The position numbers were made by a program, and so were the translations under genes. Of a DNA stretch of 64,000 bases, positions 6,836 through 8,944 are shown piece after piece. The DNA comes from Pseudomonadota bacterium (GTDB lineage: Bacteria; Pseudomonadota; Gammaproteobacteria; Burkholderiales; Burkholderiaceae_C): positions 1 through 64,000 of the forward strand of contig JADFIG010000012.1 in the NCBI GenBank assembly GCA_022566735.1, written 5' to 3'. Position 1 is the stretch's first letter. Each line of letters opens with the position of its first letter. The notes beneath the pieces are model-generated. The model worked only from the letters and a program-made list of their open reading frames with translations. It ran no database searches and was not told the origin of the DNA.

Positions 6836-8944
6836 TCACAAAGGCTGCACCGAGCCGGGCACGATGCGCGCGCCGGGGTGCTGGGACAGCAGCCCCCGCA
6901 CCAGGGCATCGCCCTCGATGAGGGCCTCGGCCGCGTGCTGGCGGGCCTCCCGGGCGGCCTGATCCCGCTGCGCCGGGGTGTTCATCGCCGCGCCCTGCTC
7001 CAGGACGAGCACCACCTCCCGACCCAGCAGCTGGGCCAGGGCCTGCGTCAGCCGGTCCTTGTGCATGTCGCCGCACAGGCTGGCCCGCGGCACCTTCAGG
7101 TGCCAGATGCTGCAGCCACCGTCCTCGCCACCTTCTTCGGACTGCGCCACGCACTGGGACTGCACGGCGAGCTCGCGCACCAGGGCCGCGATGAGGCCGC
7201 GCGACTGCATCTGCCCCACCACCTCGGCCCAGCGATCGGACAGCGGGTCGGGCGGCAAGGCCGCGAGCTGCTGCGACATGGGCATGGACGTCGCCGCAGC
7301 CGGCACCGAAGCAGGCGCGGCCGAGGCCGTCGCGCTCGCCCGGGGTGCAGCGTCGTCGCCCCAGCCGGCATCGAAATCCGGCGGAGGGCCGCTCTCCCAA
7401 GGCTCGGCAGCGGCAGCGACAGCCCCATCGCCGCCCCAGGACGCGGCGCCCTCCAGATCCACGGGCGGCTCGTCGAGGTGCGCTGGCGGCGTCTCCCAGG
7501 GCGGAGGCGAGGCGGGCCGCGACGGCGAAGATGTTGGCGAAGCGGCTGAAGGTGCAGGTGCAGGTGCAGGTGCGGGAGCGGATGGACGAAGCGCCGCGGA
7601 CGCAGGCATCGCCGAGGTCGCAGCGGGGCGCGCAGGCGCGGTCGATGCCGGTGCGGTCGATGCCGGTGCGGCCCCCTGTGCAGGCGCACGCGCGGCCACC
7701 GGCGCAGCCTGGGGCGCCGCTGACGCAGCGATGGCGTTCGCCCGAACGGCCTGAGCCGCCCCGCCCTCCTCCCGGCTGCGAGGCTCGGCGGCCGCGGGAT
7801 GCGCCACCGAGCCGTCAGATTTTGGGAGGGTGGCGCCTCCCGGCTTGAAGGCCAGCAAGCGCAGCAACAGCATCAGCAAACCGCTGTACTCGTCCGGCGC
7901 CAGGGCCAGCTCGGCACGCCCTTGCAGGCACAGGCTGTAGAACAGCTGGGTCTCGTCGGGCGCCAGCAAAGGCGCCAGGCGCGACCAGGTCAGCGCGTCC
8001 GGGTCGGCATCGTCCCCAGCCTGCGCCAGGGACGGCACGGCCTGCACCACGGCCATGCGCTGCAAACCCGAGGCCAGGTCTTCCAGTGCACCCGCAGCGG
8101 ACAAGCCCAGCTCGCGCAAGGTGTCGACGGCGCCCACCAGCGCAGCGCCATCGCCGGCCGCCACGGCTTCGATGATGCGCTGGACGTGCTGGCGGTCCAC
8201 CGTGCCCAGCATGTGGCGCACGGCCTCCTCCTGCAAACCGCCGCCGCCGAAGGCGATCGCCTGGTCGGTCAGCGACATGGCATCGCGCATGGAACCCCGC
8301 GCGGCCCGCGCCAGCAAGCGCAGGGAGCCCGGATCGTGGGCAATGCCTTCGTGGTCCAGCACCTGGGCAAGGTGCTGCTGCACCGTCTGGGCCGCCATCG
8401 GTCGCAGGTTGAACTGCAGGCAGCGCGACAGCACCGTCACCGGCACCTTCTGCGGATCGGTCGTGGCCAGCACGAACTTCAGGTAGTCGGGCGGCTCCTC
8501 CAGCGTCTTGAGCATGGCGTTGAAGGCCGTGTTCGAGAGCATGTGCACTTCGTCGATCATGTAGACCTTGAAGCGCCCCACCACCGGCTTGTAGACGGCC
8601 TGCTCCAGCAGTTGGGAGATCTCTTCGACGCCGCGGTTGGAGGCCGCGTCCAGCTCGACGTAATCCACGAAGCGGCCCGCGTCGATGTCGCGGCAGGGCT
8701 GGCACTGCCCGCATGGGCTGGCGGTGATGCCGCCCTGGCCGTCCAGGCCCGTGCAGTTCAGGGACTTGGCCAGGATGCGCGAGACCGTGGTCTTGCCCAC
8801 CCCCCGGGTGCCGGTGAACAGGTAGGCATGGTGGAGTCGCTGCTGCGTGAGCGCGTTGGACAGGGCCTGCACCACATGCCCCTGGCCGACCATGGCATCG
8901 AAGCTGCCAGGCCGGTATTTCCGCGCGAGAACCGTTGTCGTCAT
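6836..8944 (-). CDS. dnaX: DNA polymerase III subunits tau (and probably gamma)
   Basis: 702 residues. It is the clamp-loader ATPase of the replisome. Walker A is G-T-R-G-V-G-K-T-T (residues 45-53). The zinc module uses C64, C78, C81 and C84, and the S-R-C arginine-finger motif follows V-T-V-L. After residue ~370 comes a long Ala/Pro-rich linker, then the tau-specific C-terminal domain that contacts DnaB and the polymerase alpha subunit. At codons 374-375 there is a -1 slippery heptamer that would give a ~376-residue gamma form (separate entry). First gene of dnaX-ybaB-recR. Confidence 0.96.
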   Translation of the reverse strand: MTTTVLARKYRPGSFDAMVGQGHVVQALSNALTQQRLHHAYLFTGTRGVGKTTVSRILAKSLNCTGLDGQGGITASPCGQCQPCRDIDAGRFVDYVELDAASNRGVEEISQLLEQAVYKPVVGRFKVYMIDEVHMLSNTAFNAMLKTLEEPPDYLKFVLATTDPQKVPVTVLSRCLQFNLRPMAAQTVQQHLAQVLDHEGIAHDPGSLRLLARAARGSMRDAMSLTDQAIAFGGGGLQEEAVRHMLGTVDRQHVQRIIEAVAAGDGAALVGAVDTLRELGLSAAGALEDLASGLQRMAVVQAVPSLAQAGDDADPDALTWSRLAPLLAPDETQLFYSLCLQGRAELALAPDEYSGLLMLLLRLLAFKPGGATLPKSDGSVAHPAAAEPRSREEGGAAQAVRANAIAASAAPQAAPVAARAPAQGAAPASTAPASTAPARPAATSAMPASAALRPSAPAPAPAPAPSAASPTSSPSRPASPPPWETPPAHLDEPPVDLEGAASWGGDGAVAAAAEPWESGPPPDFDAGWGDDAAPRASATASAAPASVPAAATSMPMSQQLAALPPDPLSDRWAEVVGQMQSRGLIAALVRELAVQSQCVAQSEEGGEDGGCSIWHLKVPRASLCGDMHKDRLTQALAQLLGREVVLVLEQGAAMNTPAQRDQAAREARQHAAEALIEGDALVRGLLSQHPGARIVPGSVQPL
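7782..7841 (-). promoter_or_regulatory. Predicted programmed -1 frameshift cassette in dnaX (gamma subunit)
   Basis: Read 5' to 3' on the minus strand. GGGAGG (7841-7836) resembles an internal Shine-Dalgarno. After nine bases comes the heptamer C CCA AAA (7826-7820), in the zero frame as CTC CCA AAA. Six bases later an 11-bp stem with a 10-base loop occupies 7813-7782 (arms GGCTCGGTGGC and GCCGCCGAGCC, one G-U pair). A -1 slip reads AAA, ATC, then TGA at 7817-7815, ending the protein two codons after the slip. This matches the three-part E. coli dnaX layout with a different heptamer. Confidence 0.75.

Follow-up and report, generated by a model that had tools for sequence, protein, structure and literature searches.

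We analysed 64,000 nucleotides from an environmental bacterium of the Burkholderiaceae_C (Gammaproteobacteria, Burkholderiales; GenBank assembly GCA_022566735.1, contig JADFIG010000012.1, positions 1 to 64,000 of the forward strand; the whole stretch is ‘the window’ from here on), whose minus strand carries dnaX, the gene for the tau subunit of DNA polymerase III. Just past the part of the gene that encodes domain III lies a heptamer, C_CCA_AAA, flanked by a Shine-Dalgarno (SD)-like site and a stem-loop, and closely followed by a stop in the -1 frame; an arrangement that we take, with considerable confidence, to be a programmed -1 ribosomal frameshift signal yielding gamma, the short clamp-loader subunit. 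Papers are cited below by PubMed Central (PMC) number.

Working from the 5′ side of the mRNA downstream, ribosomes leaving domain III would pair with the internal GGGAGG while being held by the stem ahead of them; tRNA-Pro on CCA and tRNA-Lys(UUU) on AAA would then slip back by one base, to CCC and AAA, and the slipped ribosomes would add one further amino acid before stopping at TGA. The gamma so made, of ~376 residues, would keep domains I–III and be without the parts of tau that contact the helicase and the polymerase in E. coli; ribosomes that do not slip would make tau. What we see in the sequences are the elements and their frames, their conservation and covariation, their spread over a single clade and the set of lysine tRNAs; slippage itself, with its rate and the tRNAs that take part, and the use made of gamma are inferred.

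Elements of the signal and their conservation in the genus

A preliminary description of this DNA had listed the SD-like site, the in-frame heptamer, the spacer, the 11-base-pair (bp) stem and the -1 TGA, and all of them lie at the coordinates and in the frames that it gave (Table 1). The entire window dnaX holds two framed X_XXY_YYZ heptamers: GGGTTTG at codon 292 and CCCAAAA at codon 373.

The same description proposed looking for conservation in relatives, and would have counted its absence from close ones as a refutation; the comparison did not refute the signal, since the heptamer, the stem and a nearby -1 stop prove to be kept in 39/41 genes, at the synonymous as well as the base-pair level. 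The window's genus comprises 42 genomes, of which 41 gave a dnaX match (G008 gave none at threshold), and framed CCCAAAA stands at codons 371–379 in 39 of the 41, the window included. In these 39 genes (‘carriers’, to which the counts in this section refer) the motif occurs in frame exactly 39 times in 25,904 codon positions, always at the site, against 0.55 occurrences expected from codon use. Pro374 is CCA and Lys375 is AAA in every carrier; gene-wide, CCA makes up 14% of proline codons and AAA 28% of lysine codons, and, with count-weighted rarity as the measure, the two positions come 1st and 8th among 300 conserved columns. The rows compared had been picked for the heptamer, so that the unbiased figure is 39/41. 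Between the last codon matched to query residues 1–369 and the heptamer there are 4–14 codons, and the predicted gamma is 375–392 residues long throughout. Its -1 stop is TGA in all 39, at a distance past the slip of one codon in 32 carriers, eight in five and eleven in two; 7.9% of control positions have a -1 stop within one codon.

It might be argued that the conserved bases serve a linker peptide, P-K-A-E-G-S, with the RNA features as a by-product: P374 and K375 are present in all carriers, and the residues that follow are often A-E-G-S. Against this stand the minority codons fixed at both residues; the preceding codon, which is variable (eight different ones stand before CCA), yet ends in C in every case; the stem pairs, which change on both sides; and seven members in which the residues after PK are altered but the stem bases are retained and the -1 stop lies further on. 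We hold the peptide explanation to be highly improbable, and return to the frameshift signal.

The window stem consists of 10 Watson-Crick pairs and one G-U pair, closing a loop of 10. Strong stems are common in GC-rich DNA, and single-sequence folding was rejected as proof of this one: the window fold alone only mildly beats its shuffles in such DNA (z -1.42; 15/200 shuffles equally good), so that the evidence for the stem must come from relatives. Across the 39 distinct sequences, a nine-pair stem is paired in 96.0% of 351 cells, a value reached by 0/500 shuffles; doubly changed cells number 40, against 13.4 in shuffles, and covariation amounts to 0.325, against 0.141 (0/500 in both cases), with both-side changes in five of the nine pairs (matched by 4/500). 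Sliding the stem partner leaves no more than 49.3% paired, and the loop varies in length by whole codons, with the stem kept. The best uninterrupted stem begins 3–6 nucleotides (nt) past the heptamer in 34/39 carriers, the mean best-stem score there being 28.1 as compared with 17.0 at control places. The aligned sequences thus indicate that the downstream stem is conserved as a structure, through compensatory changes. A chance resemblance in a GC-rich linker, for which the frequency of strong stems in such DNA might speak, has next to no probability: conservation in 39/41 genus members together with covariation, the observation named as refuting chance, is what was found.

Upstream of the heptamer, the best duplex with the anti-SD sequence lies between -6.1 and -10.8 kcal/mol in all carriers (mean -8.66), against control means of -4.16 kcal/mol in the linker and -5.55 kcal/mol in sister genera; -6.1 kcal/mol is reached at 24% of the linker and 43% of the sister-genus control places. 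The spacing to the heptamer is 7–11 nt in 30/39 carriers, and E. coli dnaX gives -7.2 kcal/mol and 9 nt by the same measure. An SD-like site and a hairpin alone could pause ribosomes, and the site does lie at a domain boundary, which favours the idea that the two act otherwise, in a pause for domain III folding, in mRNA decay or in internal initiation. For a pause, however, a framed X_XXY_YYZ heptamer and a near -1 stop would be superfluous, yet both are conserved, and we consider roles of this kind very unlikely as a replacement for frameshifting.

GGGAGG can also pair with a CCTCCC running into the heptamer, which would form an upstream hairpin (window 7841–7824, minus strand). Similar pairing is predicted in some relatives (L089, L100, L105, L106 and L112), and a putative hairpin of this kind could tune the shift.

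Both tRNA-Lys(CUU) and tRNA-Lys(UUU) are present in all six carrier genomes searched (of the 39). The E. coli dnaX site uses AAG, read there by the sole tRNA-Lys (PMC5009743), and a CUU tRNA-Lys that reads AAG exactly should lower slipping at such a codon (PMC4066793); AAA in 39/39 carriers fits the two-tRNA set, as a matter of consistency and not of proof. In the window genome the genes form two separate tRNA-Lys(CUU)/(UUU) pairs (G000 C10 and C17).

Several observations weigh against a frameshift signal, in addition to the unremarkable fold of the window by itself. Two of the 41 genus members (L121 and L123) are without it; by score they belong, with the carrier L122, to the three most diverged. 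In seven of the 39 carriers the -1 stop comes only after 8–11 codons, and a stop within 12 codons is found at 27% of control positions. In five carriers another stem elsewhere scores higher, and the stems of L117, L119 and L114 barely do better than shuffles (27/100, 15/100 and 12/100, respectively). The SD-like spacing ranges from 5 to 18 nt over the 39, and sister-genus linkers without the heptamer are G-rich as well, as their 43% share reflects. Whilst the heptamer class of C_CCA_AAA is shift-prone in E. coli, the three most efficient heptamers there end in AAG and C_CCA_AAA is not among them (PMC4066793), so that its efficiency may be modest. According to the same paper, AAG shift sites occur in many species despite the presence of a CUU tRNA-Lys (PMC4066793).

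Spread of the signal and comparison with known dnaX systems

The best 80 loci from a scan of named genomes, together with the window copy, made up a set of 81 genes; it overlaps that of the genus, and the two counts are not independent. Framed CCCAAAA stands at codons 372–379 in 12 of the 81. In a tree of 80 rows, based on ~362 N-terminal residues (excluding L041, whose match is confined to the C-terminal end), these 12 form one clade with support 100/98, made up of seven genes labelled Aquabacterium, three from Burkholderiales bins, one from a Leptothrix bin and the window; the Aquabacterium-labelled strain A7-Y (L031) lies outside the clade and is without the signal. Eighteen of the 39 genus carriers again form one clade in a wider quick tree of 127 rows (Shimodaira–Hasegawa-like approximate likelihood-ratio test, SH-aLRT, 100). 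The non-carriers L121 and L123 pair beside it, the quick tree leaving their fork with L240 and L243 unresolved.

The signal was not found in neighbouring genera, L240 and L243 included, and the 68 non-carrier loci of the named set (again excluding L041) showed nothing comparable by heptamer, A/T tetramer, -1 stop or stem. A covariance model gave no match up to an expectation value (E) of 1 in 100 loci (E. coli, two non-carriers, L131, L132 and L240–L334). Over 300 genomes of the order it returned the window itself and a hairpin-only match off dnaX in G249, a weak absence, as in the rows listed no more than 16 candidates were scored for any genome. In the wider order, where dnaX was found in 119 of 120 genomes and 114 distinct order genes plus E. 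coli were read, framed CCCAAAA appeared in two distant genes, L228 and L232, away from the site.

Four framed occurrences were set aside: L258, whose -1 frame stays open for 96 codons; L253, with a 5-bp stem and at a distance of 75 codons from domain III; L232, at codon 466 and with a 4-bp stem; and L228, at codon 392 in an A/T-rich gene with many A-runs, which has eight weak pairs 7 nt on and a -1 stop eight codons past the slip. In L146 we see C_CCA_AAG, the highest-frameshifting heptamer in E. coli tests (PMC4066793), at codon 426 with a 9-bp stem 8 nt on; it is absent from the genus mate L139.

In its build the site resembles that of E. coli dnaX (Rfam RF00382): an SD-like site and, 9 nt further on, a framed X_XXY_YYZ heptamer, a pairing region a few nt downstream, an early -1 stop and a gamma that would arise by truncation. 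Unlike E. coli, the heptamer is C_CCA_AAA and not A_AAA_AAG, the site comes 4–14 codons past the domain III match and not 67 (codon 428), and both lysine tRNAs are present in carrier genomes; the RF00382 covariance model had no match in the window up to E 10, its E. coli control scoring 96.8 bits. The preliminary description was right to see the E. coli layout here, but not in calling the heptamer unrelated, as C_CCA_AAA and A_AAA_AAG both belong to the X_XXY_YYZ class (PMC4066793). Its further suggestion of convergence is supported by the differing position of the site and by neighbouring genera without the signal, and stops short of proof, deeper ancestors being thinly sampled; the Aquabacterium signal has the build of the E. 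coli element and is probably of separate origin.

Other bacteria reach a short product differently. Thermus thermophilus dnaX gives short and long products by a programmed frame change at a run of nine A (A9; PMC1088944), unlike the window site, which is without such a run, although A9 runs are found in other genera of the same family (see below). In Caulobacter, gamma is made by proteolysis (PMC5009743), another route, with no frame change. Sites of the IS1 and IS3 families of insertion sequences share with the window the X_XXZ_ZZN motif class and the presence of stimulators (PMC4066793), but their shifted product is longer than the zero-frame one, where that of the window would be shorter, as in E. 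coli dnaX. Programmed dnaX frame changes are known from, among others, Neisseria, Vibrio and E. coli with its relatives, while the Thermus one is transcriptional; for the Aquabacterium dnaX site no paper was found in the open-licence literature.

Runs of nine A in other genera of the family

Our family survey covered 110 genomes from 109 genera, with dnaX in 108. Of these genes 104 were read, leaving out the window and its genus mate (already counted) and the broken matches G233 and G258, and one more was dropped for a short match, giving 103 genes (from the range L240–L342 and L131). Fifty-eight of the 103 carry a run of A8–A10 (56 exactly A9, one A10 and one A8), in a single codon phase and 2–25 codons past the domain III match (for example, L254, L268 and L275); no run of eight or more A was found elsewhere in the fetched parts of the family dnaX genes (179,408 bases). 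Loss of one A brings a stop four codons from where the run begins in 50/58 genes and 5 to 70 codons from there in the others, and gain of one A brings a stop within 5–11 codons in 57/58; the Thermus site, too, has stops close by in both other frames (PMC5009743, PMC1088944). Genes that keep the exact A9 run have 54–74% GC.

The family A9 run is a candidate for a Thermus-type transcriptional slippage site. Ribosomal slipping is also possible at the framed A9, which contains A_AAA_AAA, and in E. coli 40% frameshifting was obtained with an A9 cassette taken from a different gene (PMC3711429). A role for the run in the peptide may be conceived of too, 37/58 genes reading EKKTL, although lysine elsewhere in the run-bearing genes is AAG in 537/815 cases. 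No report of the family A9 dnaX site was found in the open-licence literature.

That so many family genes (58/103) have A8–A10 runs near the same place invites the thought that RNA polymerase slips at the window site too, as in Thermus dnaX. The longest runs there are AAAA and CCC, however, as compared with nine A in Thermus (PMC1088944), and for slipping of this kind the SD-like site and the stem would be needless; we find it hardly credible, and keep to a ribosomal slip for the window.

The run-bearing genes fall in one clade of 62 rows (SH-aLRT 99), 58 of which have the run, separate in the quick tree from the CCCAAAA clade (18 of the 39 carriers being included). On balance we favour the view that the family has at least two unrelated gamma switches in nearly the same place, just past DnaX domain III: in the Aquabacterium clade the ribosome would slip at C_CCA_AAA, and in a clade of some sixty genera RNA polymerase would slip at a run of exactly nine A, with lineages that have no signal standing next to the Aquabacterium clade. 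A 2012 review states that most bacteria beyond enterobacteria and Thermus are without dnaX frameshift signatures and may make no gamma (PMC3290774). From a covarying signal kept across the genus and an exact A9 kept in many genera of the family, it follows that a short DnaX has probably been selected in these bacteria. Were the view of two switches true, selection for gamma, thought absent from most bacteria, would have occurred repeatedly, and the choice of usable heptamers would depend in part on the lysine tRNAs present; the two devices offer a natural test both of the role of gamma and of the influence of tRNA sets on frameshift sites.

Among the 45 family genes without an A8–A10 run, L332, L266 and L340 have a framed, E. 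coli-like A_AAA_AAG with a -1 stop 1–3 codons on. In the wider order, several families have runs of at least eight A, in some cases with CTGA after them, and AAAAAAAAACTGA stands in the dnaX linker of the other Burkholderiales L055, L056, L064, L155 and L181 (codons 380–465); A9 sites of this sort may have evolved repeatedly in the Burkholderiales.

The dnaX gene of the window and its surroundings

The Pfam families DNA_pol3_delta2, DNAX_ATPase_lid and DNA_pol3_gamma3 exceed their cutoffs in the window DnaX, the domain III match ending at residue 365, and DNA_pol3_tau_5 scores 28.0 bits against a cutoff of 28.8. Residues 2–369 align to the E. coli gamma structure 1JR3, and the -1 open reading frame (ORF) terminates at 7815 in the ORF list. 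The predicted gamma, if the shift takes place, would keep domains I–III only; its terminus comes right after domain III, near that of the 373-residue E. coli gamma of 1JR3. Lengths and domain ends here agree with the earlier expectation of a gamma of ~376 residues, against 702 for tau, ending just past the clamp-loader region.

Table 1. Features of the dnaX gene and its putative frameshift site (window coordinates; aa, amino acids)
Feature	Position	Strand	Basis or length
dnaX, DNA polymerase III tau, zero frame	6836..8944	minus	ORF list; 702 aa
Domains I–III, up to ~residue 365		minus	Pfam
Tau C-terminal domain V, residues 569–686		minus	Pfam, slightly below cutoff
Predicted gamma: zero frame through codon 375, then -1 frame ATC TGA	7815..8944	minus	376 aa
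Internal SD-like GGGAGG, 9 nt upstream of heptamer	7836..7841	minus	sequence and anti-SD duplex
Slippery heptamer C_CCA_AAA: tau codons 374 and 375 with the third base of codon 373	7820..7826	minus	
6-nt spacer TCTGAC, heptamer to stem	7814..7819	minus	sequence
Stem 5′ arm GGCTCGGTGGC, 11 bp	7803..7813	minus	sequence, fold, covariation
Stem 3′ arm GCCGCCGAGCC	7782..7792	minus	sequence, fold, covariation
-1 frame stop TGA, one codon past slip (AAA ATC TGA)	7815..7817	minus	

Two family members from neighbouring genera, L240 and L243, have very long DnaX open frames of 1042 and 1290 codons, respectively, a sign that in some genera the linker may have expanded greatly. Downstream of the window dnaX lie a ybaB/ebfC-like ORF and a recR-like ORF, named from the look of their sequence and their position, and the order dnaX, ybaB/ebfC-like, recR-like is that annotated in E. 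coli.
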